Assembly: GCA_017551165.1 (NCBI GenBank)
Contig: JAFZMO010000047.1
Coordinates: forward strand, 1-42,526
Reading direction: 5' to 3'
DNA: 42,526 nucleotides
Source: Lachnospiraceae bacterium
Lineage (GTDB): Bacteria > Bacillota > Clostridia > Lachnospirales > Lachnospiraceae
Position numbers and translations under genes: made by a program. Position 1 is the stretch's first letter. Each line of letters opens with the position of its first letter. This document shows, one piece after another, positions 3,756-19,408 of this stretch. The notes beneath the pieces are model-generated. The model was not told where the DNA came from. It made no database searches and saw only the letters and a list, made by a program, of their open reading frames with translations.

Positions 3756-3770
3756 ACTGAAACTCCTTTA

Positions 3771-4898
3771 CTACCACGTTAAGTCATAATTGGGTTTGTC
3801 TCCTAGTAAAACATTCATGTAAGGAGTATAACCATTCTGTTTGATCAACTGATTTATTAAAATTGCAACTGCGACAATTTCCGCAAAAACAAGCAGCAGT
3901 ATCACATTTCGTTTACTATTGCTATTATTCGAATTGATTTTCAATACTGAATTCTCTTTATTCAGCATCGGAATTAATATAGCGCTTAGAATGTTTGCAT
4001 TGTTCATCAGTCGTCCCATCACCAACTCCAGCGGAACTGCAACATATAAAGCAATCGATACAAAATAATACCAAAACAAGAAATGTATCGAATAATTATC
4101 TGTCTTCGAAGCCCGAAACAAATAAGTTATCACCGCAAGAAACACCAGTCTGGATAGCAAACCAAACGAAAACATTGTAGGGTTCGGCGTTGAATGCCCT
4201 CCGAGTATATCGCCAACCAGCCTATAAAAGAATCCCATCCGCAGCAAGCCGGCAATAAAAACTCGTATCAGAAGTGCAAACGATATTATGATTACAAAAT
4301 TCCTCTTAAATCTGTCTACGGTCTTTTCAACTTTTCTCCTCTTACGAATTGCCGCGAAAACCATACAGGCCAATGGTAATATCGCCGTTATATGAAAAAA
4401 CAAAAGCAACGCTGTTCCGCAGATCGCGATCCTTTCTTTTCCCTGACAATATCGGTAAATCCAATACAATGAAAACGCAATCACGATATACTGCCGATAT
4501 GCGGAAATTGTATAGATGACAAACATTGAAGAAACAAAAAACAGCGCCAACGGAAAATCGCTTGTGAATTTTTTTACTGCGTAGAACAATACTAACGTCA
4601 ATGAGGTTAGTAAAATAATTCTAAAGAGAAGATAATCTATACCTACTCTTAACGCACCTTTCATCAGGTAATAATACCCAATTTCCTGACTGTTCTCCGC
4701 TACGCTGGCTCCTCTTTCCACCATGTTGTAATGCGTGTAGTACCCATAAAAATCCGAACCATTCAAGGAGAAACAATAAAGAAAAATAAAGGAAATCGAC
4801 AATATGATTCCAATTGCTTTCTTCTGTTTGAACTTTAATGCGCTAAACAAAAGACATATTATGGGAAAAGCTACAAAAACCGGTTCTATTGCATACAT
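3771..4898 (-). CDS. EpsG-like polysaccharide polymerase (Wzy role)
   Basis: A 375-residue protein with about ten hydrophobic segments, rich in Phe, Ile and Tyr. It has the pattern of the EpsG/Wzy polymerase group: after the first two membrane segments comes a short motif with GSDFYGYYTHYN and a following E-x-G-YY region. It sits next to a flippase, which fits a Wzx/Wzy pathway in which lipid-linked repeat units are joined on the outer face of the membrane. The gene is AT-rich relative to the rest of the window, as is usual for wzy genes. Function is assigned from topology, the short motif and context, because these proteins share little sequence. Confidence 0.75.
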   Translation of the reverse strand: MYAIEPVFVAFPIICLLFSALKFKQKKAIGIILSISFIFLYCFSLNGSDFYGYYTHYNMVERGASVAENSQEIGYYYLMKGALRVGIDYLLFRIILLTSLTLVLFYAVKKFTSDFPLALFFVSSMFVIYTISAYRQYIVIAFSLYWIYRYCQGKERIAICGTALLLFFHITAILPLACMVFAAIRKRRKVEKTVDRFKRNFVIIISFALLIRVFIAGLLRMGFFYRLVGDILGGHSTPNPTMFSFGLLSRLVFLAVITYLFRASKTDNYSIHFLFWYYFVSIALYVAVPLELVMGRLMNNANILSAILIPMLNKENSVLKINSNNSNSKRNVILLLVFAEIVAVAILINQLIKQNGYTPYMNVLLGDKPNYDLTW

Positions 4899-4940
4899 CT
4901 TTAGACCACTCCCACTTACGCAAAATGTCTCAGCCTTTTT

Positions 4941-6380
4941 TTATTTCTTTCGTAATAATCCTTTAATATACTTGTAAAGTAGCGGGTTTCGGAAAATCCA
5001 CCAATACACAATTACCAAAGAACAATACGCCACACCTCCAATTACTACTTTAACCAATGTCAACATATACGCCTTCGATACAATACTATCGAACGGTCTC
5101 ACAACGAGAACCATAACGACACCTAGAAAAACATACGCCAATAAGTCTGCTCCTGTTTTTACAAACCGTTTCCTTTCATGCATATAAACAATCTGGATCA
5201 CAAGCGCGACAACTTCGGAAACGATGGTTGTAATTTCGGCACCCAGGGCACCATATTGCGGAATCAGAATGTAATTCAGCACTACATTAATTATCGCTCC
5301 GGCTACCGTTGCTTTTATGTATATTGACTCCTGTCCCTGCGGTATAAGATACTGCATTCTAATTGTATTAGAAATGCATTTCACGATTACAATCGGTGCA
5401 AATGTTATAATCAGCTGGATACATTCTGTATAACCTTTTCCCAAAAAAAGCGGGATGAACTCTTCGGCAACTGCGATAATCCCAAAGCATATCGCGGTTC
5501 CTATCATCATAATTCCACCCATGCATTCGAAAAAGAACTCTTTTGCTCTATTTCTGTCCTGTTGAAACAATACTGTCATTCTTGGTAGCATAACCGTCCC
5601 AATTCCCGAGAAAACAGCAAGGGGAACGTTTATTACCTTATCGACATTGTAATAGAACCCGGTCTGTTCATATGTGCTGAACATCCCCAGCATCAGTTTG
5701 TCCGTGCTGTGATATATTGTCATTGCAATAAGCGGGACAAACAAAAGAAGATTTGGTTTTATATGCCTAACTATACTACTACGCTTAATCCCACCAAAAG
5801 AGATCTCTCTATCCTTCAACAATTTGATCCACAATATGCCATGCCCCAACGCTGCGCTTAGAAGCATGATCACTGTGTATATCCACAAATCTCCCGCATC
5901 TTTCACAAAAACAAACAGTGAAACAAAAGCCATTATCCGAAAAAACATATTGCATTTAACAGTGATGCTGAATTCTTCCATGCCAAAATAAAACCATGAT
6001 ACATCGAATAAATATCCTATCAGCGTAATCAACTGCAAACCCGCAATAAATCTGTTTTCGCGACAAATCACAAGATACCCTAAGTATAATATAATCGAAA
6101 TAGAACACGTAACTAATTGAAAGAAATATATTTCAGCAAAGACAGTTCTCCTTTTTTCCTCATCGGTTTCCGTGGCAATTGCTCTTGTCCCGTAATTAGT
6201 TGTCCCAAGCATTGCAAACAAAGTAAAGAACGATGCAACGGATGTAGTATACGAAAAAATCCCAAGCTGAACAGATCCAAGCACCCGTGCTATATACGGT
6301 GTGGTTATCAGCGGAATAATTGTGTTTACTATTTGAAGATACGTCTGGAACCTTAAGTTTTTAAACAAAGAAGATCTCAT
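4941..6380 (-). CDS. wzx: Wzx-type flippase of the polysaccharide biosynthesis/MATE superfamily
   Basis: A 479-residue polytopic membrane protein (about 12-14 segments) that should flip undecaprenyl-linked repeat units across the membrane. The N-terminus LRFQTYLQIVNTIIPLITTPYIARVLG and the internal DKLMLGMFSTYEQTGFYYN region are typical of the family. I take the ATG at 6378-6380 because the hydrophobic core starts just after it. An in-frame ATG at 6455 would add 25 hydrophilic residues and overlap the upstream glycosyltransferase. The 6380 start lacks a close ribosome site: a strong GGGGGAGGAGAGG lies about 25 bases upstream. A 14-codon mini-ORF joins the upstream stop to this start (see findings). 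Confidence 0.85.
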   Translation of the reverse strand: MRSSLFKNLRFQTYLQIVNTIIPLITTPYIARVLGSVQLGIFSYTTSVASFFTLFAMLGTTNYGTRAIATETDEEKRRTVFAEIYFFQLVTCSISIILYLGYLVICRENRFIAGLQLITLIGYLFDVSWFYFGMEEFSITVKCNMFFRIMAFVSLFVFVKDAGDLWIYTVIMLLSAALGHGILWIKLLKDREISFGGIKRSSIVRHIKPNLLLFVPLIAMTIYHSTDKLMLGMFSTYEQTGFYYNVDKVINVPLAVFSGIGTVMLPRMTVLFQQDRNRAKEFFFECMGGIMMIGTAICFGIIAVAEEFIPLFLGKGYTECIQLIITFAPIVIVKCISNTIRMQYLIPQGQESIYIKATVAGAIINVVLNYILIPQYGALGAEITTIVSEVVALVIQIVYMHERKRFVKTGADLLAYVFLGVVMVLVVRPFDSIVSKAYMLTLVKVVIGGVAYCSLVIVYWWIFRNPLLYKYIKGLLRKK

Positions 6381-6420
6381 AGTCTTTTCTGTTGATAACG
6401 TCCTCTCCTCCCCCGATCCA

Positions 6421-7575
6421 TTATAAAAAGCTATCGGAGAATTTTGTAAACTCATATTTTTCTATTGCTTCACTCCTGCACAGCTCAATTATCTCTCTGT
6501 TTTTTCTCTTACTGTTTCGAACCGCGGCTACAATACTCTCCGCCGAAACACTATCCAGTAGAGTCAGGACCGGATACTCGGCCAGGTATGGCATGCCCGA
6601 TATATTAAATGCTGTAATCGGCGTTCCGCAACTCATCGCTTCAACACAGGCGTTTGGCAACGCATCCTCAACACTTGTGCAAATATACATGTCCGCCGCA
6701 GAATAAATCTCTCGCAATTCTTCCTGATCCGAAACATACGGTATTGTCATAAAGTTCGGCAATTCAACTGCAGTTTTCCCATCATAGCCGACATTTATGA
6801 AGAGATATTTTTCATCCGACGCCAACATCCTTGCTGCATCCAAAAACATTTTCACACCCTTTCTCGGATTGGAAAACGGCGCAACATCCAACAGGATTAT
6901 TTTGTTCTTTGCAATGTTATGCTTTTCCCTGAACTTGTCTTCTGTCGGATGATAAAATTCTGTGTCAATTCCGGTGTTTTTATATGCAAATCTTGCATTT
7001 CTCAACAGCGAAGATCCCTTGGCTCGTTCAACGATATATTGTACAGACGAGAAATTCGTTTTGTCAACAAGCTTTCTGTAATACTCCTCTTTCTCTCTGT
7101 ATTGGATACCAGCATTCTTATACCTTGGGCAATCTCTGCAACAATTCTTATATCCATCGCAACCGTTCGTATACTCACATCTCGCAGTATACGGAAACTC
7201 ATCACACATAAACCAATCTATAGTTACATTCATTTTTGCAACTTCGTTTAAGAAGAGCGGAATATTCATCCAATGACCATGAAGATTCAAGATTATTATA
7301 CGATCCGGCTTAAAAACAGAAACTTTTTTTATAATCCGTTTCGTGAAGTATGTGGAATAGTACCCCTCTTTTCCCGTTCGCCTAGCCACAAGATAATGTA
7401 CCGCATTATCAAAGAAACATCCTTGCTTGACGTGAACTCCATCCCTGCTTTTTTTCCCTCTGCCATGGAACACTTTGCAATTATGTCCCTGCAAAATGAA
7501 TCTTTTTGCAAGGTTTGTTGCCAATTTCCCTGTGCTGCCCTCTACGCCAACAACATTTATAATCGCAATATTCAT
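6421..7575 (-). CDS. GT4-family glycosyltransferase
   Basis: A 384-residue GT-B glycosyltransferase expected to add one sugar to the lipid-linked repeat on the cytoplasmic face. It opens with MNIAIINVVGVEGSTGKLA, the N-terminal nucleotide fold. The C-terminal half holds the donor-site region EDALPNACVEAMSCGTP with the E-x7-E spacing of GT4 enzymes. A Cys cluster near residues 130-155 (CEYTNGCDGYKNCCRDC) is unusual and could bind a metal. The ATG at 7575 has an AAAGG site 7 bases upstream; a TTG 30 bases earlier is less likely. A decayed relative lies immediately upstream (7595-8471), so this is one of a tandem pair. Confidence 0.9.
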   Translation of the reverse strand: MNIAIINVVGVEGSTGKLATNLAKRFILQGHNCKVFHGRGKKSRDGVHVKQGCFFDNAVHYLVARRTGKEGYYSTYFTKRIIKKVSVFKPDRIIILNLHGHWMNIPLFLNEVAKMNVTIDWFMCDEFPYTARCEYTNGCDGYKNCCRDCPRYKNAGIQYREKEEYYRKLVDKTNFSSVQYIVERAKGSSLLRNARFAYKNTGIDTEFYHPTEDKFREKHNIAKNKIILLDVAPFSNPRKGVKMFLDAARMLASDEKYLFINVGYDGKTAVELPNFMTIPYVSDQEELREIYSAADMYICTSVEDALPNACVEAMSCGTPITAFNISGMPYLAEYPVLTLLDSVSAESIVAAVRNSKRKNREIIELCRSEAIEKYEFTKFSDSFL

Positions 7576-7594
7576 AAAACAACCTTTTTCCTCT

Positions 7595-8471
7595 CTATTT
7601 GTCAACGAAGTAACCGTTCATATTCTTCGGAATAACTTCCTGCTTCAGATTCCCGTCATATCCGACATTGGTAAAATGACACTCCGTATCCTGGGGCGAC
7701 TCGCGATCTCAAAGAAATACTCTTTCACGCTCCTTCTCGGATTTGAGTAATTCGCTACCGTCAGTATGATAACCTTATCCTTTAGAATTCCATATTTATC
7801 ATAGAGCGTTTCGTCGATCTCATACTTGTATGTTTCTAGATCGACGCCTCAGGATTCCCTCTTCATGGGTTTATCCTTGACCAATGCCGATTCCCTGAAC
7901 TTAATCAGATTGGTTCCCGGTCCGATCAGTGTCATCGTATCGAATCCCTCGTATGCTTTTTTCTTTCGTTTGAAAATTGCTCGTGACCAATCAAAAAAAG
8001 ACTCCTGGGACATCCCTTTATCCGGGGACAATCTCCGCACCTGTTTTATACTTTTCACATTCCATGCTGTAACAGCATTTTCCGAGCGAGGGATATTCAT
8101 CCGACATAACATATGCCGTTTGGATCCCGTTTTTCTTCAGAAGCTCCAGTAACCTTTTCTCGTTCAGATAATTGCCGTGAATATTCAGAAGGATTACTTT
8201 CTTTATCTCATTCTTTTTCAGGTAGGAAAGCAGTCTACTGATGGCAAAATTGGACAATACTCCCTGAAGTAATCCGTGTTAATGCCTTGTACATCAAAAA
8301 CTCAAGCTTCCCATCTATTCTGATAATATGATCGTCAGTGCTTTTCTCCCCTCGTCCGAAGAATACGAACAGTTCATTGCCATGTGCTTTTCCATACTCG
8401 TACAGTTGTCTAGTCAGCGCACCTGTACTGCTGTATTCATAAACAGAATTGATGATTGCCAACTTATCCAA
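7595..8471 (-). pseudogene. decayed GT4 glycosyltransferase related to the gene at 6421-7575
   Basis: Pieces in different frames align in order with the neighbouring glycosyltransferase. 8471-8250 (TTG start, AGGAG site) encodes LAIINSVYEYSSTGALTRQL and FGRGEKS. 8257-8018 encodes ILLNIHGNYLNEKR and MSDEYPSLGKCCYS. 8112-7849 gives a middle part, which ends at an in-frame TGA (7849-7851). The same frame then continues as GVDLETYKYEIDETLYDKYG and NYSNPRRSVKEYF. A last frame near 7690-7595 gives ECHFTNVGYDGNLKQ and stops at TAG. This means at least three frameshifts, one nonsense codon and loss of the C-terminal donor-binding third. Residues match the paralogue at the IIN, FHGRGKKS, LNLHGHW, DEFPY and FINVGYDGK positions. 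Confidence 0.85.
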
Positions 8472-8517
8472 ACCTATTCTCCTCTGGCCTCAGCGGTAAT
8501 AATGCAACGATTATTGC

Positions 8518-9597
8518 TCACAGCAAATAGAAGCGATCAAAAGTATCCCGATCCACAATCCCGTAATCCTCAAATCGGAACGCAGCTTTCTCGACAGCTA
8601 TACCATCATACCAGTTCAGCGTTTCGTCTATGTTCGGTGTTGCCACTCTGGCAAAGACAGCAACCTGTTTAATGATACTCAGTCCATACGAAAAATCCGC
8701 AGTAAAATATCTGGAATGCAAATCCGGAATCAGTCCTCCGTCAACCCCTACGGTCGGCGTGGGCAATCCCTTAAAAGCTTGTATGGACGATAATTTTCTC
8801 GTCATGGCTTCCGCTGTCGGACTCTCATAATGAACCTTTAATGATTTGACATATTTGAGGTCAAACTCCGAAAGCGCTTTACATATCTCCTGAACCTCTG
8901 CATCGCACGCCAGCAATAATTCCGACGATTCATCATCCCACTCTTCATAGAACAAAGGCATTGAAGAATATGTTTTTCCGGGCTTCCAGTCTTTAAACAA
9001 CGTTTTAAGTCTCGTCGTGTGTAATATCGGATTGGACGGTGTCAGGGTTAAGGTCAGAAAATCGGGAATTACAACACATCGTTTGTCAAATATGGCTCCT
9101 ATTATCTCTGCGCATTTTTGACCATTGCTTTTGGGCAGGGCTGCCACATGCAGTTCGTCCCGATATCCTGTTGATTTGACCGTTCTGCCCTTTTGAACCA
9201 ACCTGGCGATAGCCGGCACCCTCTCGATCCCAAAGAATGTGTTCCCGCGATCGATACACTTCTTAAATGCGCATTCACTTCCGCCGTTGCCCGGCACAAC
9301 GCCGATCATTGTGCCCGAATCCGTGTTATCATATATCGCATCCGCAACCGCATTCATCACAGTCGAAGGAACGGTCACCATAATCAACTCAGCATCGCGG
9401 AAAGCCCGTTGCGGATCATTCGTGGCAAGTTTAATATTCCCCTCATGCGTGGTAATTCCCTGCTCATTCACGATATTTAAGCGACCGCTGTATATATCCG
9501 GCGTAGATGTATAGACAGTAACTTCGTGCCCTTTCTCCGCACTGTGCACTGCAAACTGCGTTCCGATATTTCCACCGCCGACTATGGTTATCCTCAT
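8518..9597 (-). CDS. octopine/nopaline dehydrogenase family protein
   Basis: A 359-residue NAD(P)-dependent enzyme of the opine dehydrogenase type. The Rossmann motif GGGNIGTQ is at residues 7-14. The C-terminal helical domain shows PSNPILHTTRL (Asn189, His193, the position of the catalytic His) and SRYFTADFSYGL (Arg296). Known members reductively condense an amine with a 2-oxo acid. The start ATG overlaps the TAA of the preceding fusion gene by one base (TAATG), so the two are translationally coupled and probably act on the same compound. A role in opine-like modification of a polysaccharide precursor is inference. A simple alcohol/2-oxo-acid dehydrogenase is the alternative. Confidence 0.85.
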   Translation of the reverse strand: MRITIVGGGNIGTQFAVHSAEKGHEVTVYTSTPDIYSGRLNIVNEQGITTHEGNIKLATNDPQRAFRDAELIMVTVPSTVMNAVADAIYDNTDSGTMIGVVPGNGGSECAFKKCIDRGNTFFGIERVPAIARLVQKGRTVKSTGYRDELHVAALPKSNGQKCAEIIGAIFDKRCVVIPDFLTLTLTPSNPILHTTRLKTLFKDWKPGKTYSSMPLFYEEWDDESSELLLACDAEVQEICKALSEFDLKYVKSLKVHYESPTAEAMTRKLSSIQAFKGLPTPTVGVDGGLIPDLHSRYFTADFSYGLSIIKQVAVFARVATPNIDETLNWYDGIAVEKAAFRFEDYGIVDRDTFDRFYLL

Positions 9598-11405
9598 TAT
9601 TCCAATTCCTCTTTCATTGCGGCAACCAACGTGTCGTTATCATTCGTGTCTCTGACTGCCAGCCTCAGATAATTCCTGCCGTTTGTTTTTGTCGTCAGCT
9701 CCTTAATAAGCAGATTATGCTTAATGAGCAGTTTCTTTAACAGCTCCTTGGGACTGATCCCTTCTTCCAGCTCCACCATCACAAAATTGGCCTGCGAAGG
9801 AATCACGCGAACTCCCTTAATGGTCGCCAATTCGCGTTGGAAGCGAGCCCGTTCAGCTCTCAGCTTTGCAAGCGCCGCCGCATAATCCTTCTTGTATTTT
9901 TCTTCTATCTGCATATAGAATTCGCCAAAAGAGTTAATGTTCCAAATGGCGACATCCTTTTTCATCTTTTGTATGGTTTCCGTATCTCCTGACGCCAGGA
10001 CGCCGAGACGCAACCCGGGAACACCATACGACTTTGAAATACTCTTCATCACATACAGCTGAGGATTCTTCGACAGAATATCCTGATAGAAGATCGTACT
10101 GTCCTCCTCGTCTGCAAAATCAACAAAAGACTCGTCGATAATGAGCTTAATGCCCTTCTTCCCGCTCCAATCGATCAACCGAAGCAAGCCTTCTTTAGGG
10201 ATGTAGTTTCCGCTGGGATTATCCGGGTTGATCACTACAAGATTTTGAATCTCTTTATCCTCAAAAAAGCGCATAATCTCTTCGGCGGTATACGAATAAT
10301 CGTTATTCTCCGGAGTATAATCAACGGATTTTTCCCTGTCAAAGCGATTCGGATACTCATCAAATGTCGGTCGGATAAACCCTACCGTACCGCTGAGGTG
10401 TTCCATCAAACTCTTGATTAGTTCTGCCGCTCCGTTTCCGACAAGAATGCAATCCTGATGAACGCCGAAATTTTTAGCCGCGAGCAAACTGTTTACACGC
10501 ATTCCCGACGGGTACTGCGTCAGAAGCACGGAGAAATTTGCCTTGAGCTCATCTATCATCTTTTGCGGCGGAAAATACGGATTAACGAGATAGCAAAAAT
10601 CCAGCAACTTAGGGTATCTCCAGTATCCGCCGTAACGTCCCTGCAACAGTCTTACTCTTTCGTCCTCATCCGGAGTGAAGATTGATTCCGCAATATCCAG
10701 ATCCTGAATGTCATCAATCTCATACCATTTCTGTCCATCCAGTCGTTTCGCCTTTATTACCGGCTCATCAAGCATCGTGATAACACGGAGAACCTGCTCA
10801 TAATACTCGTTCTCACCCAAAGCGGACTGGTACGCATCCAAAAAAGGAACATAGTGCGTTGCCGAGAACTGCTTGCTGAACTTATACAGGTTTACCGTCT
10901 TATAATAATCCTTGATCTCATTGAATTTAAACTTCTTACCCGGAACAAAGGCTTCGATGGTATCATCTTCCCCGATCTTTACACAAGTACCATCCATCCA
11001 CGATTCATATTTGTCGACCAGCGCCAGTGTATCCCGCGGATCCGAAACAAGCGCGTCAAGAACCGAATCCTCGAATATCAGGTCCGACTCAAAGAGAAGC
11101 GTGTCCTCCTTTACAAGCCAGTCTTTTGCGAGAGCGAGCGAATAGATATTATTGGTCTTATCATAGATGGGATTGTTTATATAAACAATCGGCGTTTTGA
11201 TGTCAAGGGTTCCGATATAATCAATCAGTTTCTGGCCCTCATAACCGACCACAATAACAATACGGGACAGCTGTTGCCTTTCAATCTGGTGAAGCATACG
11301 ATCGATCAAAGTAACCCCGTTTACTTTTACCATGCACTTGGTATTATTCTGGGTCAGTTCCTTTAAGCGTTTACCCATTCCCGCTGCTAAAATAATCGCC
11401 TGCAT
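9597..11405 (-). CDS. fusion of a LicC-like nucleotidyltransferase and a CobD/HisC-like PLP enzyme
   Basis: A 602-residue two-domain protein. Residues 1-240 are a small sugar-nucleotidyltransferase-like domain: LAAGMGKRL at 6-14, ESDLIFE with Asp108, and YEIDDIQDLDIAE at 228-240, a pattern of LicC-type cytidylyltransferases. Residues 255-602 are a fold-type I PLP enzyme close to histidinol-phosphate aminotransferase and threonine-phosphate decarboxylase. It has NPDNPSG at 393-399, Asp424, SISKSYG with PLP Lys458, Arg466 and a late Arg581. One chain could form a phosphorylated amine such as ethanolamine phosphate from phosphoserine and then make its CDP derivative. The domains are visible; the reaction is inferred. 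The ribosome site is AGGAG. Confidence 0.88.
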   Translation of the reverse strand: MQAIILAAGMGKRLKELTQNNTKCMVKVNGVTLIDRMLHQIERQQLSRIVIVVGYEGQKLIDYIGTLDIKTPIVYINNPIYDKTNNIYSLALAKDWLVKEDTLLFESDLIFEDSVLDALVSDPRDTLALVDKYESWMDGTCVKIGEDDTIEAFVPGKKFKFNEIKDYYKTVNLYKFSKQFSATHYVPFLDAYQSALGENEYYEQVLRVITMLDEPVIKAKRLDGQKWYEIDDIQDLDIAESIFTPDEDERVRLLQGRYGGYWRYPKLLDFCYLVNPYFPPQKMIDELKANFSVLLTQYPSGMRVNSLLAAKNFGVHQDCILVGNGAAELIKSLMEHLSGTVGFIRPTFDEYPNRFDREKSVDYTPENNDYSYTAEEIMRFFEDKEIQNLVVINPDNPSGNYIPKEGLLRLIDWSGKKGIKLIIDESFVDFADEEDSTIFYQDILSKNPQLYVMKSISKSYGVPGLRLGVLASGDTETIQKMKKDVAIWNINSFGEFYMQIEEKYKKDYAAALAKLRAERARFQRELATIKGVRVIPSQANFVMVELEEGISPKELLKKLLIKHNLLIKELTTKTNGRNYLRLAVRDTNDNDTLVAAMKEELE

Positions 11406-11416
11406 TCTTCTCCTGC

Positions 11417-11438
11417 ATGGTGCTATAAAACGATAACA
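11417..11438 (-). promoter_or_regulatory. small intergenic stem-loop inside the polysaccharide operon
   Basis: Arms GGTGCTAT and ATAACACC (one mismatch or G-U pair) flank a six-base loop, within the 130-base gap between the PglC-like gene and the fusion gene. It ends about ten bases before the start of the fusion gene. No U-run follows, so it is more likely an RNA processing or stability element than a terminator. Confidence 0.4.
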
Positions 11439-11534
11439 CCATTCTCCTTTCTTCTAATTCACCAAAACACGCTCGTTATTCGTATCTCGCAAACAATCGT
11501 CAATACTCACAGAGATATTACTGTCCGTTGACAA

Positions 11535-12227
11535 TCAATGACGATTTCTGCCCGCAGGAGCACTCCAGCTGACCACAGCATCATCCGGGGTACCCATGAA
11601 CTCCTCCATCGTCGCAGAGGTCTCTGAATTAATCCCCTCGTGAGTCAAAACCGTCTTGATCGTATCGAAAATAATCTTAACATCATTTATGAACGTCACA
11701 TTTTTTGTATACCAGACATCCATGGCAAATTTATCTTCCCATGACACCGCATTTCTTCCATGGGCCTGCGCATATCCAGTCAGTCCCGGTCTCACATCGT
11801 GCCTGTGATGCTGTTCCTCGTTGTATCTGTCCAAATACCGTACCAACAACGGCCGGGGGCCGATTAATGACATATTACCTTTCAGAATATTCAGTATTTC
11901 CGGAATCTCGTCCAGGCTGGTCTTACGCAGCCAGGTCCCAAAAGGTGTCAATCGCTCACTGTCCGGCAATAATTCCCCGTTTTCATCTCTGGAATCGGTC
12001 ATCGTTCTGAATTTAAACAGACAAAAAAGCTTTTCTTTACCGGTCTTCGGGTTTATTTTCCCTGCCCTCTCCTGTTTGAACAGAACCGGGGATCCGAGTT
12101 TAATCCTTACCAAAACAGCGATTACTGCGTACAGCCACCAGAAAAGGATAAGTACTGCCAAGGAAACAATAACATCGATGAAACGTTTGAAAACCAGAGC
12201 ATACGGGCCCCGTTTAACCTTTTCCAT
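11535..12227 (-). CDS. PglC-like phosphoglycosyltransferase (initiating sugar transferase)
   Basis: A 230-residue monotopic phosphoglycosyltransferase that moves a sugar-1-phosphate from a UDP-sugar to undecaprenyl phosphate and so starts repeat-unit synthesis. One N-terminal re-entrant membrane helix (about 15-40) is followed by the catalytic region with KFRTM, the Asp-Glu pair in SLDEIPE, and MSLIGPRPLL. The size is near the short PglC form rather than the long WbaP form. PglF and PglE upstream suggest that the first sugar is a bacillosamine-like residue. The ribosome site is AGGTGAT before ATG. Confidence 0.92.
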   Translation of the reverse strand: MEKVKRGPYALVFKRFIDVIVSLAVLILFWWLYAVIAVLVRIKLGSPVLFKQERAGKINPKTGKEKLFCLFKFRTMTDSRDENGELLPDSERLTPFGTWLRKTSLDEIPEILNILKGNMSLIGPRPLLVRYLDRYNEEQHHRHDVRPGLTGYAQAHGRNAVSWEDKFAMDVWYTKNVTFINDVKIIFDTIKTVLTHEGINSETSATMEEFMGTPDDAVVSWSAPAGRNRH

Positions 12228-12314
12228 ATATCACCTGCTTGATGTTTTATTAACAAAAACAACTCTTTCCCTTTCTTCGTTATGGCTTACGCATATCCGG
12301 GCGTTGTGGGATAC

Positions 12315-13532
12315 TCACTCGGACTCCGTCCCGATAATGATTCCGTACGCCGTCTCAACAGAATAATATGTGTTCAGATAATCCGTCTCTCTTTTGTACA
12401 TATCCGCATCGGAGTATTCATTAATCGCGTCGTTCACCGTCATTGCGAACGCGTTTTCGTCGTTGCTTTCGCACCACCAGCCAAATCCCGCATCAACAAT
12501 TACTTGGCCGATATCTGAGCTTGTATCGGTACATGCGAGGACCGGGATCCCCACCTGCATATAGGAAAGCAATCTGCTCGGAAAATTCGGGATCGTAAAC
12601 CTGTGATCCAAAAAGATCAGTCCTACATCACACGCTCCGACCAACTTGTCATATTCTTCCTTCGGGATCTTCCTTATGAGTTTAAAATTCTCCTGGCCGG
12701 AGCTCGTTTTGTAGTCTTCCAACGTCCGGTATTCGGTTCCGTCCCCGACCACAACAAAAAAAGCTCTGTCTTCATCCTCGCATGCTTTTAAACATTTAAC
12801 CACATAAGGGATATCCTGTGGTTTCCCCAGGTTTCCTCCGTAAATGAACGCAACCCTGTCAGCCGGAATACCGTATTTCTCGCGTATTGTCAGTCTGTCG
12901 GCTTCGTTTACTTTCTTCTCAACTACTTCAATGCTGTTGGGACAGATTTCCACATCGGACGGATCAATCTCCGGATTATTCTTAATGACATAATCCATAT
13001 TAGCCTGTGACATGCACCCGATCGTATCTGACAACTGGTATAATTTTCTCTCCGTTTTTCTGAAATACCGGTAAATAATCCCCTTCAGTCCGGATGTTTT
13101 CATCATCCCGAGATCAACAGCGTTTTGAGGGAAAATATCCTTTAACAACAAATACGTTCTGGCGTTGTCACGCTTCTTCACATACGCGACCGCTTTATTG
13201 AATGTGATCGGCGGAGTGCTGTAAAGCACCAGATCAAAGGTTACGTTCGAAAAATCGTTTTTGATCGATCTGATGTATTTCTTTGAAACCAGCAGCGTGG
13301 AAAGCCCTTTTTTTATTATATTTTTTCCGCCCCGCATCATATCGATGTCGACATGTGCGATAACACAATTGTCCTTCCCGTCGTAATACGACTTCCTTTG
13401 TATTTCTTTCTTTCCGGGGCTTAACGCATAAACACTGTGCCCGTGCTTCAAAAAACACCGAAGCAGATCACAGTATATCGTGTGCTCCTCAATATCATCT
13501 ATACGCCCCACCGTAAGAAACAATACGTTCAT
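12315..13532 (-). CDS. GT4-family glycosyltransferase (WbuB-like)
   Basis: A 405-residue GT-B enzyme starting MNVLFLTVGRIDDIEEHT. The C-terminal half has the GGNLGKPQDIPY turn of the WbuB-like group and the donor site region around FPSRLLSYMQVGIPVLACT. It is expected to add the second sugar to the lipid-linked first sugar, since it lies next to the PglC-like enzyme. I chose the ATG at 13530-13532 over a GTG 12 bases earlier, because GAGGTGA upstream then has room to act as ribosome site. Confidence 0.88.
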   Translation of the reverse strand: MNVLFLTVGRIDDIEEHTIYCDLLRCFLKHGHSVYALSPGKKEIQRKSYYDGKDNCVIAHVDIDMMRGGKNIIKKGLSTLLVSKKYIRSIKNDFSNVTFDLVLYSTPPITFNKAVAYVKKRDNARTYLLLKDIFPQNAVDLGMMKTSGLKGIIYRYFRKTERKLYQLSDTIGCMSQANMDYVIKNNPEIDPSDVEICPNSIEVVEKKVNEADRLTIREKYGIPADRVAFIYGGNLGKPQDIPYVVKCLKACEDEDRAFFVVVGDGTEYRTLEDYKTSSGQENFKLIRKIPKEEYDKLVGACDVGLIFLDHRFTIPNFPSRLLSYMQVGIPVLACTDTSSDIGQVIVDAGFGWWCESNDENAFAMTVNDAINEYSDADMYKRETDYLNTYYSVETAYGIIIGTESE

Positions 13533-13550
13533 TGTCTGTATCACCTCAAA

Positions 13551-14339
13551 TCACTGCTGTCCTTTTATATGCATTGGTCTTCTCTTTTCGACCGGCGGCA
13601 GCTTCATATACTCTCCATACGCTACGGTCAAATATTGGTGATAATCTGAGATACCTCTTAATTTGGTATTCTCGAATTCGACGTCAATAAAACTATCCAT
13701 GATGTCCCGCGAGTACTTGAACAAACTAATCTGTCTGAACATGGAATTGTATATGTTAGCCTTTTTTGTCTTCTTACGGTTTCCCCACTTGGACACTTGC
13801 GTGTACAACTTCTGCTTGAACTTTGTTCCGAATGGTTTTCCCATTACATGGGTTACCGCAACCAACACCTTGTTGATCCCGTTGTATTGTTTATAGTCGA
13901 TTTTCTTCTTCAGCATGCCCTGAAGGGCCTTCAGCGTAAAATTCTTCACCTTGGAAGCAATCGGATTGTCCGGAATATTATCCATCACAAACAGATCGAT
14001 ACAGCCCTCGTCCATTTGTTTTCGGGGATTATCTTTACGAGTGATTCGTTTTACCCATGTGTCCCCTATAATTTCATACTCGTCGGGTGTGTTCTTCTGA
14101 AACAATGAGAGGAATTTTTCATAGTTCTTCCGGTCAAACATTATGTCTGCATCATCGTCCCACGGAATAAAACCCTTATGCCTGATCGCGCCCAACAATG
14201 TTCCGCCGTTCAGGCTGTAATTAATCTCGTTCCTCCTGCAAAAATCATCGATATCAACCAGTATCTTCAGCAGATACTGCTGCATATCTTTGATCCCATA
14301 TGGATCCGAACCGTTATTATCCTCTCCGATTACCGACAT
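13551..14339 (-). CDS. licD: LicD-family phosphotransferase
   Basis: A 262-residue protein of the LicD group, nucleotidyltransferase-fold enzymes that transfer phosphocholine or related groups from CDP carriers to glycans. The signature is clear: SLNGGTLLGAIRHKGFIPWDDDAD with GGTLLG at residues 45-50 and metal-binding acidic residues at 61-65. The start overlaps the end of the ATP-grasp gene by 10 bases. Its presence in the same operon as the LicC-like/PLP fusion strongly suggests that the CDP-linked product of the fusion is what LicD transfers. Choline itself need not be involved, since no choline uptake or kinase gene is seen here. Confidence 0.92.
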   Translation of the reverse strand: MSVIGEDNNGSDPYGIKDMQQYLLKILVDIDDFCRRNEINYSLNGGTLLGAIRHKGFIPWDDDADIMFDRKNYEKFLSLFQKNTPDEYEIIGDTWVKRITRKDNPRKQMDEGCIDLFVMDNIPDNPIASKVKNFTLKALQGMLKKKIDYKQYNGINKVLVAVTHVMGKPFGTKFKQKLYTQVSKWGNRKKTKKANIYNSMFRQISLFKYSRDIMDSFIDVEFENTKLRGISDYHQYLTVAYGEYMKLPPVEKRRPMHIKGQQ

Positions 14340-15928
14340 AACAAATCCCCTATCTTTTTGAACGAATCAACCACCGTTATTTCGTTGATGACTTCATTAT
14401 CTTCGTAGTAAATCCCATCCGGATTGCGAACAAGGATTGCGCCCATTCCGATCTGTCTGGGGCCCTGAAAATCCTTGGAAACATTATCCCCGATATATGC
14501 GATCTCGCTTGTGGGAAGCTTCCATCTGGTCGCCATTATCCGAAAGGCAATGTCACAAGGTTTTCTAAACTGGGGGCCACCCAACTCATCGGTGATGATA
14601 ATGTCATCAAAAAGCTTTTCGATACCCAAAGCCGCAATCTTATTCCTTTGTCCTTCCGGTCTTCCGTCAGTGATCAGTCCTGTCTTAATCCCTTTCGCGG
14701 ATAATCTCTCAAGGGTTTCTCGTACATCGGAAAACAAATGAATTGACGGTTTGTGGTACCGATATATCCGTAGCACATCGGCCTTCTCGCTCTCGCGGCC
14801 CAACTCTCTCAGCAGTTCGTCAATGGCAGGTTTCCCTGCGGCAAAAAACTCCAAAAGCTTCTCTTCGTATCCGCCGCACAGATAGTCGCTTACCGCCTTA
14901 TAGCCCGATTGAACATATTCCTTTTCGCTGTACAGGGTATCGTCCAGATCAAAGATAACACCCTTGATCCGACGCTTTCCTTCACTGATGCATACGGACT
15001 GATCAAAGCGGGAATAAACCGCCCCGTCTGCAATATCGCCCTGATACTCCGGTTTTTCATTGTCCAGCAACTTCAGAATCGTTTCCGCGCTTCTCGCGCC
15101 TGCCTTCATAGACAAGGGGGCTCCGCCGCCGAATCTGGGATTTATCTCAATAAACCAGTCTGTGCCCGCTTCGTCCCGAATGAATTGCACCGTGATCGGA
15201 CCACAGGGTTTGTATTCTTTACAGAGTCGCTTTGCCTCATCAATCATCTGGTCATCCATGCAGATCCTGGTTTTTAATACTTCTCCCGATCTGACCTGCA
15301 TGCGCTCACGGGGAACGATGCTTACCGGCTCACCGTTCCAGTCACAAAAGATATCAATGGTATATTCCCGGCCGCTCACAAAGGGCTGTACAATATAGTC
15401 TTCTATCTGCTCCGCGTAGATTTTCAGCGCTTCAACGTTGTCAACCTTATAGGCATTAATACTGCTTGATCCGTCCTTGGGCTTGATAAACGCCGGATAC
15501 CCTGCCGCATATTCTCTCCAATCATTCACAGGCATGGGCGCCCGCAATCCGCACTTGACAAAAAACTCGCTCGTGTTGTTCTTGTCCCGGCATATTCTTA
15601 TTTTATCCGGTTCGCTGATCATTACTCTCGTGCCGATCCGTTCAAATTTTTCCTTGTTCTCAGCCAATACCAGCAAATCCGTATCAATCGTCGGTATCAG
15701 CAGATCAATGTTATCTTCCCTGCAGATTGAAAGAAGGCCATCAATATACCTGGGATCCTTCATCGCAACAACTCGCCGAACATAGTTACAATATGCTAAA
15801 GCAGGGGCTGTTCCCGTCATATCCGCGCCGTAGATCATCAAGTCCTTGTTCAGTACAAGCGCCGCATTTCTAAATGCCTGAAGCAATTCAACTCTTCTGC
15901 CAACTCCCGTAAACAGAATTCTTATCAT
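14330..15928 (-). CDS. ATP-grasp ligase fused to a HAD-family phosphatase
   Basis: A 532-residue protein. Residues 1-110 form a pre-ATP-grasp nucleotide-like domain (ILFTGVGRRVELLQAF). About 115-300 is an ATP-grasp domain of the carbamoyl-phosphate-synthase-like kind, with FIKPKDGSSS and the metal-site segment EINPRFGGG. From about 320 a HAD hydrolase begins: FDLDDTL with Asp327 and Asp329, then TDGRPEGQ and IGDNVSKD. ATP-grasp enzymes join a carboxylate to an amine or thiol through an acyl phosphate, so it may acylate the amino sugar or the decoration. The start at 15928 has a perfect AGGAGG site and lies 8 bases after the aminotransferase stop. Substrates are unknown. Confidence 0.88.
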   Translation of the reverse strand: MIRILFTGVGRRVELLQAFRNAALVLNKDLMIYGADMTGTAPALAYCNYVRRVVAMKDPRYIDGLLSICREDNIDLLIPTIDTDLLVLAENKEKFERIGTRVMISEPDKIRICRDKNNTSEFFVKCGLRAPMPVNDWREYAAGYPAFIKPKDGSSSINAYKVDNVEALKIYAEQIEDYIVQPFVSGREYTIDIFCDWNGEPVSIVPRERMQVRSGEVLKTRICMDDQMIDEAKRLCKEYKPCGPITVQFIRDEAGTDWFIEINPRFGGGAPLSMKAGARSAETILKLLDNEKPEYQGDIADGAVYSRFDQSVCISEGKRRIKGVIFDLDDTLYSEKEYVQSGYKAVSDYLCGGYEEKLLEFFAAGKPAIDELLRELGRESEKADVLRIYRYHKPSIHLFSDVRETLERLSAKGIKTGLITDGRPEGQRNKIAALGIEKLFDDIIITDELGGPQFRKPCDIAFRIMATRWKLPTSEIAYIGDNVSKDFQGPRQIGMGAILVRNPDGIYYEDNEVINEITVVDSFKKIGDLLCR

Positions 15929-15936
15929 GCGTCCTC

Positions 15937-17244
15937 CTACAAAAAGCACCTGCGTATGATCTCTATCACCGTCTCCTGCTGCTCCACCGTCATCTTATTA
16001 TCGCTCGGCAGGCACAGTCCTCTTCGGAAAATGTCTGCTCCGACATCCGCTCCGCTGCCTGCGATATAGGCATTGCTTCTGCCGCGTCCGTTTCCTTCGG
16101 CAGTGATAAATGCATGCGTGCGGTAGATCGGCTGCATGTGCATGGGCTTCCAGATTGGGCGTCCCTCCGCGTTAAATGCCGCCAATGCGTCAAGGATCTC
16201 CTGCGGTGAACTCTTACCGCTTTCGCTCTTATACAGGAAATCCTGCTCGCCGCGAACCATCGGTGCCATTGCATCTTCATCAATGATCATGCAGGAAAGC
16301 CAGTAGTTCGGCTCGCTCTTCTCCGCATCGAACGGATTCATCTTCACTGGAAGATCGGCGAACGCCTTCTTATAGCGCTCGTAGATTGCCTTCTTCTGTG
16401 CGATATGCTCGTCTAGATGAGGGATCTGTCCGCGAACCACTCCGGCAACAATGTTGCTCATGCGGTAGTTATATCCGACTTCCTCGTGCTGATACCACGG
16501 AGCCGCTTCACGCGACTGCGTGGACCACTTGCGAACCTTATCCGCATCCTCTTTCGAGTTTGTCAGGAACATTCCGCCGGCGGAACCGGTGACAATCTTG
16601 TTTCCGTTGAAGGAGATGCAGTTGTAATTGCCGAGCGAACCCGTCTCTACCCATTCGCCGTTCAGTTTGTATCTCGCGCCAAGGCTCTCCGCCGCGTCTT
16701 CCACGATCAGCGCTTCGTGCCGATCGGCGATCGCCTTGATCTCCTCCATCTTGCCGGGCGTTCCGTAAAGGTGCGCCACGACGATCAACTTTACTTCCGG
16801 ATAGATCTCAAACGCCTTCTCAAGCGCTTTCGGACACATATTCCAGGTGTCATACTCGGTATCGATAAATACGGCTTCGCCGTCCTCGTACGCAACCGGA
16901 TTGATGCTCGCGTCAAAGGTTACATCGCTGCAGAATACCTTTCTGCCGGCCAGCGTTCCCTCGTACGGTCGCGCTTGACCGTACAACTTCTCTCCGGCCA
17001 GCTTGGTCGCAAGATGAAGCGCAGCGGTTCCCGCAGACAATGCCACAGCGTATTGAACGCCAACATATTCAGCAATCTGCTTCTCGACCTCGTTAATATT
17101 CGCTCCGACCGTGGACACCCAGTTGGTCTGGATCGCATCGTCAACCCACTTCTGCTCGTCACCGTGCATGGTTGGAGAAGAGAGCCACAATTTCTTGTCA
17201 AATGGTTTTATCCCCGAAAAACGGGGATCCGTCAAAATACTCAT
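15937..17244 (-). CDS. pglE: PglE-like UDP-4-keto sugar aminotransferase (DegT/DnrJ/EryC1)
   Basis: A 435-residue PLP aminotransferase. LSSPTMHGDEQKWVDDA opens the chain, ALSAGTAALHLA binds the cofactor phosphate, VEDAAESLGA holds the pyridine-binding Asp, and the PLP lysine is Lys216 in SFNGNKIVTG. Its pairing with a membrane UDP-GlcNAc 4,6-dehydratase directly upstream indicates amination at C4 to give a UDP-4-amino-4,6-dideoxy-GlcNAc, the precursor of bacillosamine. The GC content is like the housekeeping genes and unlike the AT-rich genes further along the operon. A ribosome site AAGGA lies upstream of the ATG. Confidence 0.9.
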   Translation of the reverse strand: MSILTDPRFSGIKPFDKKLWLSSPTMHGDEQKWVDDAIQTNWVSTVGANINEVEKQIAEYVGVQYAVALSAGTAALHLATKLAGEKLYGQARPYEGTLAGRKVFCSDVTFDASINPVAYEDGEAVFIDTEYDTWNMCPKALEKAFEIYPEVKLIVVAHLYGTPGKMEEIKAIADRHEALIVEDAAESLGARYKLNGEWVETGSLGNYNCISFNGNKIVTGSAGGMFLTNSKEDADKVRKWSTQSREAAPWYQHEEVGYNYRMSNIVAGVVRGQIPHLDEHIAQKKAIYERYKKAFADLPVKMNPFDAEKSEPNYWLSCMIIDEDAMAPMVRGEQDFLYKSESGKSSPQEILDALAAFNAEGRPIWKPMHMQPIYRTHAFITAEGNGRGRSNAYIAGSGADVGADIFRRGLCLPSDNKMTVEQQETVIEIIRRCFL

Positions 17245-17299: not shown

Positions 17300-19408
17300 T
17301 CAGTCATCCGCTTCCGCAGCAGCGCCTTCGCCGACTTCGTTCATCAACATACGATACACTTCGCTTCGGATTGCCTCCACACCCTCCTGATGGTACGTGT
17401 TCACCATGCCTGCAACCAATCTCTTGATATCACGGCTGTTCGCATACGCCGCGTCCATAAGATCGTCGAGATCGTCGAGGAACCGGTTGATGTCAAACTT
17501 CAGCGGTCTTCCGATGTGGATCTTCTCATTTTCCGTCTTTTCGAGTCCTTCCTCGGCCATGAGTTTCTCCTCGTAGAGTTTCTCACCCGGGCGAAGGCCT
17601 GTGTACTCGATCTTGATATCCACGTCCGGCTTGAGGCCGGAGAGGCGGATCAGGTTGCGCGCGAGCGTGTCGATCTTGACCGGGCTGCCCATGTCAAGGA
17701 CGAAGATCTCGCCGCCGCGGGCATTCGTGCCCGCCAGAAGAACGAGGCTGACGGCCTCGGGGATCGTCATGAAGTAGCGGATGATGTCGGGGTGGGTAAC
17801 CGTGACCGGGCCGCCCTTCTCAATCTGCTTCTTGAAGATCGGGATGACACTTCCATTCGAGCCGAGGACGTTGCCGAAGCGGACGGCCACGAACTCGGTC
17901 TTGATGTTGCGGAAGAAGTCCGCGTTGGCCATCAGGTCGAGCTTCTCCTTTCCGCCGCGCGTCTTCGTGTAGTGGGTGAAAAGCTGCGGAATTTCCGCTG
18001 CCTTTCCTTCCTTGATCTTCGCGTCGAAACTCTGGATGATCATCTCGCACAGACGCTTCGAGGCGCCCATGATGTTGGTGGGATTGACCGCTTTGTCCGT
18101 CGAGATCAAAACGAAGCGCTTGCAGCCGTGCACCATGGCCGCATATGCGGTCTTGTAGGTGCCGATCGCATTGTTCTTGATCGCCTCGCAGGGGCTGTCC
18201 TCCATGAGCGGCACGTGCTTGTGAGCTGCGGCATGATACACAACATCGGGCTTGTACTGCTCAAAGACTTGGAACATTTTCCGCGAGTCTCGCACAGAAC
18301 CGATCAACGTCACAAGGTCAAGCTCGGGATGCTTCTCCCGAAGCTCAAGCTGGATGTTGTATGCGTTGTTCTCATAGATATCGAAAATGATCAGCCTCTT
18401 CGGGTGATGACTCGCAACCTGTCGGCAGAGCTCGCTGCCGATAGATCCGCCGCCACCGGTCACAAGAACGGTCTTCCCGTGTAAAAACTCAAAGACCTCC
18501 CCCATATCGACCTGTATCGGATCGCGACCGAGGAGATCTTCAATTGAAACCTTCTTGAGATTGGACACGGAGACATCTCCGTTGACAAGCTGATACATGC
18601 CGGGCAGATTCTTCAACTCGCACCCGGTTTCCTGGCAAATAGCAAGAATATCCCTGCGCTCCGACATTCCGGCAGAAGGGATCGCAAGGAAGATTTTCCG
18701 TACTTGATAGCGCTCAGCGGCCTCAAGGATATGCTCGCGGCCACCGACGACAGGCACACCGTCGATATAGCGGCCCTGTTTATTCTTGTTGTCATCGATG
18801 ATGCATACGACGCGATCGCCGACTTCCTTTGTGCTGTTGATATCGCGTACAAGCATCTGTCCGGCTGAACCGGCACCGATTACCATGACATTGGCGCAGG
18901 CTCCCTTCGGCTTACCGATGCGCGCCTCCGCCTTGATCATCAGGAAAAAGCGGTACGCGAAACGAATCCCCAGCACAAGACAGAACTGGATGATGGCTCC
19001 GATGATATAGTAGGATAGAGGCATTCGACGCTGTACGTATTTTTCAGGCTCGAGCCGCATCATTGCGGTGATTCCGGCAGTATGAAGCACGGCTGTGATG
19101 ATCGATGCTATGATCGTACGGAGAAGCTCGCTGTAGCTGGCAAATCGCCAGATACTCTTATACAAGCGAAGAAGATAGAAAACAAGAATACATACGACAA
19201 CATACGCGGGCGTGAAGAACTTCCACGCGCGCAAATAGTTTTCCTGAATCAACGAAAAACGACAATCAAAGCGAAGCCACAGAGCTAAGAAATAGCTCAT
19301 GGCCACTGCTACTATGTCGTATATCATCAGAAACAAAGAAACTCCGATCCAGTGTTCCTTGCCGAAGAAACGCTTCATCGGTTTCACTTTTTTCGTGGTC
19401 TCACCCAT
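17300..19408 (-). CDS. pglF: membrane UDP-GlcNAc 4,6-dehydratase PglF/CapD
   Basis: A 702-residue protein with four N-terminal membrane helices (about 22-155). A first Rossmann-like region follows (MVIGAGSAG, 176-182), then the catalytic SDR domain with TGGGGSIGSEL at 317-327 and STDKAVNPTNIMGASK. It makes UDP-4-keto-6-deoxy-GlcNAc. Length and order match the long membrane PglF/CapD type. It is the first gene of the polysaccharide operon, about 80 bases downstream of a predicted promoter. The ATG at 19408 has no good ribosome site of its own: GGAGGAAA lies about 32 bases upstream, separated by a 6-bp hairpin and a 5-codon ORF. Confidence 0.93.
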   Translation of the reverse strand: MGETTKKVKPMKRFFGKEHWIGVSLFLMIYDIVAVAMSYFLALWLRFDCRFSLIQENYLRAWKFFTPAYVVVCILVFYLLRLYKSIWRFASYSELLRTIIASIITAVLHTAGITAMMRLEPEKYVQRRMPLSYYIIGAIIQFCLVLGIRFAYRFFLMIKAEARIGKPKGACANVMVIGAGSAGQMLVRDINSTKEVGDRVVCIIDDNKNKQGRYIDGVPVVGGREHILEAAERYQVRKIFLAIPSAGMSERRDILAICQETGCELKNLPGMYQLVNGDVSVSNLKKVSIEDLLGRDPIQVDMGEVFEFLHGKTVLVTGGGGSIGSELCRQVASHHPKRLIIFDIYENNAYNIQLELREKHPELDLVTLIGSVRDSRKMFQVFEQYKPDVVYHAAAHKHVPLMEDSPCEAIKNNAIGTYKTAYAAMVHGCKRFVLISTDKAVNPTNIMGASKRLCEMIIQSFDAKIKEGKAAEIPQLFTHYTKTRGGKEKLDLMANADFFRNIKTEFVAVRFGNVLGSNGSVIPIFKKQIEKGGPVTVTHPDIIRYFMTIPEAVSLVLLAGTNARGGEIFVLDMGSPVKIDTLARNLIRLSGLKPDVDIKIEYTGLRPGEKLYEEKLMAEEGLEKTENEKIHIGRPLKFDINRFLDDLDDLMDAAYANSRDIKRLVAGMVNTYHQEGVEAIRSEVYRMLMNEVGEGAAAEADD

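Follow-up and report, generated by a model that had tools for sequence, protein, structure and literature searches.

The DNA stretch analysed here (the window, 42,526 nt, to which all coordinates refer) is contig JAFZMO010000047.1 of the Lachnospiraceae bacterium assembly GCA_017551165.1. Its minus strand carries a surface-polysaccharide operon encoding, in order, a dehydratase, a LegC-like aminotransferase, an ATP-grasp and HAD protein, a LicD phosphotransferase, a glycosyltransferase, an initiating sugar transferase, a bifunctional fusion protein and an octopine/opine dehydrogenase-family enzyme (ODH). Beyond the ODH gene, the operon continues with a broken glycosyltransferase, a glycosyltransferase, Wzx, an EpsG-type polymerase and nucleoside diphosphate (NDP)-sugar genes. 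The features central to the analysis, with PLP for pyridoxal phosphate and CDP for cytidine diphosphate, are:

9597..11405, minus strand: bifunctional fusion, 602 aa, predicted CDP-ethanolamine synthase starting from O-phospho-L-serine (Pfam/NCBIfam, PDB relatives, invariant residues)
10656-11405, minus strand: N-terminal half of the fusion, residues 1-250, PntC/LicC-type cytidylyltransferase
9600-10640, minus strand: C-terminal half of the fusion, residues 256-602, CobD-like PLP domain
8518..9597, minus strand: ODH, 359 aa, predicted to use pyruvate and NAD(P)H for the N-(1-carboxyethyl)ation of CDP-ethanolamine (PF02317, OcDH 3c7a)
13551..14339, minus strand: LicD-family phosphotransferase, 262 aa, predicted to transfer a phospho-alkanolamine from CDP to a glycan (PF04991)

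A sequence-only reading had placed the fusion, ODH and LicD in one polysaccharide operon and described the ODH gene as translationally coupled to the fusion; coordinates, strand and domains were confirmed by Pfam, NCBIfam and PDB matches, and the fusion stop and ODH start do overlap as TAATG. Two genes, one for a group-1 glycosyltransferase and one for a bacterial sugar transferase, separate LicD from this pair. We propose, with a probability of roughly 0.6, that the fusion/ODH pair is a module making CDP-N-(1-carboxyethyl)ethanolamine and that the operon adds the corresponding phosphodiester group to a surface polysaccharide. The PLP half would decarboxylate O-phospho-L-serine to ethanolamine phosphate, which the N-terminal half would convert with cytidine triphosphate (CTP) to CDP-ethanolamine. 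ODH would then condense the free amine of CDP-ethanolamine with pyruvate and use NAD(P)H to reduce the resulting imine, which would yield CDP-N-(1-carboxyethyl)ethanolamine; less likely, it would work on ethanolamine phosphate ahead of the CTP step. Finally, LicD would move N-(1-carboxyethyl)ethanolamine phosphate onto the glycan. The domains, the coupling of the genes, the intact catalytic residues and the association of the genes in other genomes, described below, are read directly from the sequences.

Pfam divides the fusion into a MobA-like NTP transferase (residues 3-122) and an aminotransferase I/II domain (residues 317-596). At E<=1e-6, the only PDB matches of the N-terminal domain are PntC (6pd1) and LicC (1jyk). 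Residues R13, K23, E106 and E203 are invariant in 22/22 aligned fusions and correspond to R15, K25, E104 and E196 of Tde-PntC, the last pair only if the HMMER alignment as printed is shifted by one residue. E106 and E203 are also present in L086, L087 and all 14 members of a wider alignment (made up of the window fusion, three from the set of 22, and ten others, from Fusobacterium, Priestia, Rahnella, Erwinia, Gloeothece, Pseudonocardia and four viral-collection contigs). According to PMC6697681, Arg15, Lys25 and Lys153 of Tde-PntC are important for activity, and Glu104 and Glu196 are placed to bind the primary amine of 2-aminoethylphosphonate (AEP), LicC having Asp there; by alignment, the window fusion carries the same acidic Glu/Glu pair. 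The signature GXG(T/S)RX4-8PK reads GMGKR...TK in the fusion, with Arg13 and Lys23 in 22/22, K (17) or R (5) at the T/S site and T at the P site in 21/22. A sugar-1-phosphate nucleotidyltransferase was considered for this domain and dropped, given the PntC/LicC-only PDB matches and the invariant Glu pair; there remain matches of 21/21 scanned fusions to the archaeal GlmU-type (GlmU/AglF) sugar-1-phosphate model, far under its cut-off (window 70.7 vs. 292.1 bits).

Concerning the PLP half, its best PDB match (E 9.5e-46 by sequence, 1.3e-66 by profile) is 6oux, a 'threonine phosphate decarboxylase-like enzyme', which we take to be SMUL_1544, a characterised L-serine O-phosphate decarboxylase; CobD (1lc5) is the third-best relative by profile. 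In PMC7755780, the name of 6oux is the product name of SMUL_1544 of Sulfurospirillum, and the title of a paper cited in PMC6461909 has SMUL_1544 governing norcobamide synthesis. The domain scores higher with the CobD model (TIGR01140, 176.5 bits) than with the HisC model (TIGR01141, 141.4 bits), and the PLP lysine K458 is invariant in 22/22 fusions, Arg581 in all 21 that reach that site. A role as the HisC of histidine synthesis was dropped because the genome has a separate HisC (L054) over the curated cut-off (285.1 vs. 276.55 bits). The sequence-only reading had left decarboxylation and transamination side by side; on the evidence of 6oux and of the CobD score, decarboxylation appears the more likely chemistry and transamination the less likely one.

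ODH belongs to the Octopine/nopaline dehydrogenase family, with 97 bits for PF02317 (gathering cut-off 30), and its profile matches at E<=1e-5 only octopine dehydrogenase (OcDH, 3c7a) and CENDH (1bg6) in the PDB. Its residues H193, R296 and D301 are invariant in 24/24 ODHs and align with H212, R324 and D329 of OcDH, D329 presumably being the Asp of the His-Asp dyad; the dyad and the NADH-sensing Arg are present. For OcDH, PMC2924402 names His212, Arg324 and a His-Asp dyad. The enzyme is predicted to condense an amine reductively with a 2-oxo acid.

As for LicD, the window protein scores 112.7 bits with PF04991 (cut-off 22.6), is the sole match to this family in its own genome at E<=0.001, and contains TLLGAIRHKGFIPWDDDAD, which we take to be a stretch of the LicD catalytic region. 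Its best NCBIfam match, below cut-off, is Mf1 (NF045866), and it also matches, weakly, the fukutin-related protein 6kaj (E 0.0019). PMC11982090 describes the LicD-type Mf1 as moving phosphoethanolamine from CDP-ethanolamine.

The distribution of the two core genes was analysed in a class sample of 391 genomes and in 26 ODH-bearing genomes: the window's own, seven others of the class sample, 15 from a wider contig scan and three from family scans (151 and 197 genomes). These 26 genomes hold 27 ODHs, with no pair more than 96% identical. In the class sample, the window ODH finds matches in 8 genomes (E<=1e-20) and the fusion is found in 12 (E<=1e-60); both genes are present in 4/391, adjacent in 4/4 (Fisher p = 3.4e-5, or 5.5e-4 over the 390 genomes left when the window's own is set aside, in both cases uncorrected for relatedness). 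The fusion adjoins ODH, in both gene orders, in 16 of the 26 ODH genomes (the window, L010, L013, L014, L017-L023, L026, L029, L030, L086 and L087). The co-occurrence of fusion and ODH, which had been set beforehand as a point on which the proposal could fail, held. As to the third family named in the sequence-only reading, LicD lies within the examined stretch in only 7/16 of these genomes (the window, L010, L013, L017, L030, L087 and, as a partial match, L019).

The other ODH genomes show varied neighbours, each in 1/26: the AEP pathway (L011), LicD at a contig end (L031), a CDP-glycerol-type phosphotransferase near ODH on the other strand (L012), and a contig end cutting off the upstream side of ODH (L088). 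L016, also a single case, combines two LicDs and a class V aminotransferase with an OCD-family gene and a fused CTP transferase/oxidoreductase. The L016 fusion (9513-10853), a PF01467 cytidylyltransferase joined to a GFO/IDH/MocA oxidoreductase, is another candidate for a CDP-linked pathway. In L030 (Mogibacterium timidum, 311-12439), two LicDs, the fusion and two ODHs lie together, with a GH25 protein between the ODHs that has nine matched choline-binding repeat stretches, which may bind the modified group. Four viral-collection contigs of 22-322 kb (L068-L071) carry full-length fusions of 45-49% identity, with weakly LicD-like genes nearby in L069 and L070; phage records gave no ODH match at E<=1e-10.

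Evidence on the substrate of ODH comes from one genome, in a single instance. In L011 (genome G321), the gene order is LicD, ODH, phosphonopyruvate decarboxylase, AEP transaminase, CTP transferase-phosphoenolpyruvate (PEP) mutase and a PntC-like nucleotidyltransferase, so that the AEP route would replace the decarboxylation and CTP steps of the fusion. Its ODH is 53-54% identical to that of the window, and its AEP transaminase is over the curated cut-off (TIGR03301, 457.1 vs. 360.8). Used as a query, the L011 ODH finds 2 of 398 phylum genomes at E<=1e-30, one of them the window's own. In a midpoint-rooted tree, it is the first branch of a clade (support 95/93) holding 11 fusion-linked and four partnerless ODHs, with four fusion-linked ODHs outside; in G848, of the same family as G321, ODH adjoins the fusion. 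Because ODH was kept when the fusion was replaced by the AEP genes, this amine-supplier exchange points to a phospho- or CDP-linked aminoethyl group as its substrate. A cytidylylated, P-linked aminoethyl group, delivered to the surface with LicD, would be common to both settings. The window's own genome (assembly 91% complete, 7.7% contamination) gave no PEP mutase match at E<=0.001, and a phosphate ester therefore fits as the product there; the relative L011 does have a PEP mutase.

Fusions also occur without ODH, and when 14 ODH-linked fusions (L086 and L087 not included) are aligned with eight ODH-less ones, no column fully separates the two groups. For these two reasons, the fusion probably makes CDP-ethanolamine with or without ODH, which would add a later step; the order given in the sequence-only reading, with the CDP step ahead of the ODH step, thus gains comparative support. 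Among the ODH-less fusions, a gene for an S-adenosylmethionine (SAM) methyltransferase follows directly in L045, LicD adjoins in L046 and an ATP-grasp ligase in L044. A plasmid of Gloeothece verrucosa (L063, 6977-10439) has fusion, SAM methyltransferase and LicD in a row, a cluster predicted to give a de novo phosphocholine decoration from serine phosphate. An OCD/mu-crystallin-family gene adjoins the fusion in 3/8 ODH-less genomes (G077, on the opposite strand, G239 and G375) and in 0/14 of the fusion+ODH genomes searched; such genes lie at L049 1687-2646, L051 9134-10033 (both SbnB-like, below cut-off) and G077:C6:4085-4873, and perhaps encode a second imine reductase that serves this amine and is unrelated to ODH.

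A second kind of terminal step is predicted in lipid-type operons, a branch unforeseen in the sequence-only reading. A CDP-alcohol phosphotransferase is present in 3/16 fusion+ODH genomes (L021, L022, L026), a CDP-glycerol-type phosphotransferase in 2/16 (L029, and L023 exactly at the cut-off). LicD thus stands as one of several candidates for the final transferase, the role that had been assigned to it in general, with the CDP-alcohol enzyme in its place in those three. The lipid-type operons, of Ruminococcus flavefaciens (including XPD3002, a named isolate) and two relatives, pair the fusion/ODH module with a CDP-alcohol phosphotransferase and an acyltransferase, the latter a protein that also has an AMP-binding domain; all three encode a major facilitator superfamily (MFS) protein as well. 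Their CDP-alcohol enzymes carry the DGxxAR...GxxxDxxxD motif, and that of L026 weakly matches choline/ethanolaminephosphotransferase 1 over residues 55-243 (E 3.5e-4), the better-scoring 4o6m covering residues 56-144 only. In these operons, the CDP-alcohol phosphotransferase would take the place of LicD, and the predicted product is a phospholipid headgroup, not a glycan group. Plasmids of Rahnella and Erwinia carry a distant fusion with a CDP-alcohol phosphatidyltransferase gene immediately after it, the Rahnella protein failing the strict motif pattern; in a second Erwinia record, the fusion is annotated as two pieces.

Several observations weigh against the proposed CDP-N-(1-carboxyethyl)ethanolamine pathway. 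LicD was not found in the examined stretch of 9/16 fusion+ODH genomes, and no terminal transferase was recognised in 4/16 (L014, L018, L020, L086), where the Pfam search covered part of the neighbours. The association is not obligatory, since in the class sample 8/12 fusions lack ODH and 4/8 ODHs lack the fusion. No partner of ODH was recognised in 5/26 genomes (L015, L024, L025, L027, L028), by a Pfam search of two neighbours in all, one each in L015 and L025, and by blastp of the others against a reference set; the ODHs of L024, L025, L027 and L028 form one clade and are about 410 residues long, 51-52 of these being inserted after residue 286 of the window ODH. A 21-fusion profile slightly favours LicC (6.7e-20, residues 2-101) over PntC (1.7e-18). 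The PLP domain is under both curated cut-offs (290.55 for CobD, 276.55 for HisC); it may well work like CobD, yet is not classifiable as CobD. Furthermore, Lys568 (21/22, one sequence being cut short, and 14/14 in the wider alignment) stands where CobD 1lc5 and 6oux carry Arg. Because of the failed cut-offs and this replacement, the substrate or reaction of the PLP domain may differ from that of CobD/6oux. Neither serine phosphate and threonine phosphate, nor pyruvate and other 2-oxo acids, are distinguished by the sequence.

The rival that survives best, unlikely as we consider it, is a transaminase, by which the PLP domain would, for example, turn dihydroxyacetone phosphate into serinol phosphate, like Cj1437 of Campylobacter jejuni, with CDP-serinol then N-carboxyethylated by ODH. 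It is consistent with the 21/21 fusions that match the CobD and HisC models alike, with Lys568 in place of the CobD Arg, and with the description in PMC12409886 of serinol phosphate (Cj1437) and ethanolamine phosphate (Cj1436) within one capsule pathway. Against it, the closest PDB relative by far is 6oux, with the product name of SMUL_1544 (PMC7755780), and a plain aminoethyl group is the better fit both for a methyltransferase adjoining the fusion and for the replacement of the fusion by the AEP route. An improbable variant has the PLP domain decarboxylating O-phospho-L-threonine, to give CDP-1-amino-2-propanol and an N-carboxyethyl aminopropanol group. CobD (1lc5), an L-threonine-O-3-phosphate decarboxylase, is indeed among the best PDB matches; the AEP cluster, however, supplies a related ODH with an amine that has no methyl group, and the known natural group sits on ethanolamine (PMC9630907).

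We hold it just as improbable that ODH uses another amine (either an amino sugar or an amino acid that is afterwards joined to the glycan by an amide bond, like the N-epsilon-(1-carboxyethyl)lysine of Providencia) and is a mere neighbour of a CDP-ethanolamine fusion. Carboxyethyl-lysine is known in a Providencia O-antigen (PMC10609480), and the eight fusion-only and four ODH-only genomes of the class sample would agree with such independence. The adjacency, however, recurs in lipid, glycan and phosphonate contexts, to which only the aminoethyl-phospho unit is common, and no amino-sugar gene is among the downstream genes identified in the lipid operons (acyltransferase, 5'-nucleotidase-like, CDP-alcohol phosphotransferase, MFS), the upstream side not having been searched. 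Very improbable is a Campylobacter-like amide route, in which the ATP-grasp part of the protein at 14330-15949 would couple ethanolamine phosphate to a sugar acid and its HAD part dephosphorylate the product: this ATP-grasp and HAD fusion does adjoin LicD, in C. jejuni an amide is formed with ethanolamine phosphate by Cj1438C and dephosphorylated by Cj1435 (PMC12409886), and other ATP-grasp genes lie near ODH-less fusions in L044, Priestia, Rahnella and Erwinia, but the route leaves the fused cytidylyltransferase, LicD and ODH unexplained, and, of the ODH loci compared, L017 alone gave a blastp match to the protein.

The remaining features of the operon, all on the minus strand, are:

17300..19408, minus strand: CapD/PglF-type membrane NDP-sugar 4,6-dehydratase (PF02719)
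15937..17244, minus strand: DegT-family sugar aminotransferase, LegC-like, below the LegC model cut-off (Pfam/NCBIfam)
14330..15949, minus strand: ATP-grasp and HAD fusion between the LicD and DegT genes (Pfam)
12315..13544, minus strand: group-1 glycosyltransferase (Pfam)
11535..12227, minus strand: initiating polyprenyl-phosphate sugar transferase (PF02397)
6421..7605, minus strand: group-1 glycosyltransferase (Pfam)
4941..6455, minus strand: Wzx-type flippase (PF01943)
3771..4898, minus strand: EpsG-family (Wzy-type) polymerase

The gene order from the dehydratase to ODH is kept in L017, a Lachnospiraceae metagenome-assembled genome from water-buffalo rumen, with 87-96% protein identity. 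At 7630-8471 (minus strand), a group-1 glycosyltransferase remnant is spread over three frames, as a pseudogene or an assembly error; an intact relative occupies the equivalent site in L017, two stretches being 83-85% identical and a third 42%. The ATP-grasp and HAD protein is reminiscent of the Campylobacter ethanolamine amide ligase/phosphatase pair.

Among known systems, the Pnt pathway (Tde1415 PntC-AEPT, 6pd1/6pd2; PMC6697681) resembles the fusion in joining an N-terminal LicC-like cytidylyltransferase to a C-terminal PLP enzyme, in the positions of its amine-contact Glu residues, and in a cytidine monophosphate (CMP)-activated aminoethyl group thought to be bound for the cell surface. 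The window PLP half is CobD-like (aminotransferase I/II), whereas the AEPT of Tde1415 is class V; the window also adds an opine dehydrogenase, and the main text of PMC6697681 contains no term starting with opine or N-methyl. The Lic phosphocholine pathway (LicC/LicD) likewise activates with CTP and has LicD pass a phospho-alkanolamine on to a glycan; it uses imported choline, whereas the window unit is predicted to arise de novo from an amino acid phosphate, with Glu for two LicC Asp residues and an N-carboxyalkylation step. The CYLxNPY and WNIN..GE stretches are common to the window PLP domain and 6oux; unlike SMUL_1544 and CobD (6oux, 1lc5), the window domain is fused to a cytidylyltransferase, has Lys568 for Arg and lies outside a cobamide operon. 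Cj1436, the L-serine phosphate decarboxylase of the C. jejuni capsule, likewise leads from serine phosphate to ethanolamine phosphate for a surface polysaccharide; in the description of PMC12409886, by which alone the two are likened, the phosphate is removed, ethanolamine is amide-linked and no CDP step or ODH appears. Finally, octopine dehydrogenase and CENDH (3c7a, 1bg6) share with the window ODH the family, the His-Asp dyad and the NADH-sensing Arg; their amine is an amino acid, whereas that predicted for the window is a nucleotide- or phospho-linked aminoethyl group.

N-[(R)-1-carboxyethyl]ethanolamine phosphate presumably belongs to the Proteus O-antigen O14. A Proteus ODH as the O14 gene was rejected: the only Proteus matches (H4/H5) have 25% identity, and gene sizes and order are like those of a Serratia locus with a TonB-dependent siderophore receptor. 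A distant ODH does lie in a siderophore-like locus with a Y4yA-type PLP enzyme and a cysteine-synthase-like protein, at L065 5714-12679 (Serratia) and L059 9555-14353 (Proteus), the latter stretch being unannotated and matched to Serratia by gene size and order only. A Burkholderia plasmid ODH was also set aside, with no CDP or LicD gene among its listed features.

As a whole, the sequence-only reading appears largely right, its pathway being supported in part and the phosphonate swap giving it a natural control. Its statement that N-carboxyalkylated ethanolamine phosphate had been reported in O-antigens was borne out: N-[(R)-1-carboxyethyl]ethanolamine phosphate, a known component of bacterial glycans, is listed in the legend of a PMC9630907 figure on Klebsiella pneumoniae capsules and Proteus mirabilis O-polysaccharides. 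An N-(1-carboxyethyl) derivative of phosphatidylethanolamine from a rumen protozoon is reported in the title of a 1971 paper. The open-licence literature yielded no gene assignment for the N-carboxyethyl group, in the glycans or the rumen lipid, which is weak evidence. More tentatively, and at somewhat less than even odds, one ODH clade might act generally as the finishing enzyme for aminoethyl groups activated with CDP or CMP, leading to glycan groups, to the phospholipid phosphatidyl-N-(1-carboxyethyl)ethanolamine with a CEPT-like enzyme in Ruminococcus flavefaciens and its relatives, and to an N-carboxyethyl phosphonate with the AEP route.

Candidate genes are thereby put forward for a chemical group that occurs in surface glycans and in a rumen phospholipid. 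If the wider reading is true, it would be a first gene assignment for this group of bacterial surface glycans, rumen bacteria would be a source of the phosphatidylethanolamine derivative reported from the protozoon, and a bacterial Kennedy-type pathway would start at phosphoserine. The fusion suggests that a single two-domain enzyme can build a CDP-activated surface decoration de novo, starting from an amino acid phosphate, and its neighbours suggest a later diversification at the amine, by ODH, by a methyltransferase and possibly by an OCD-family reductase.

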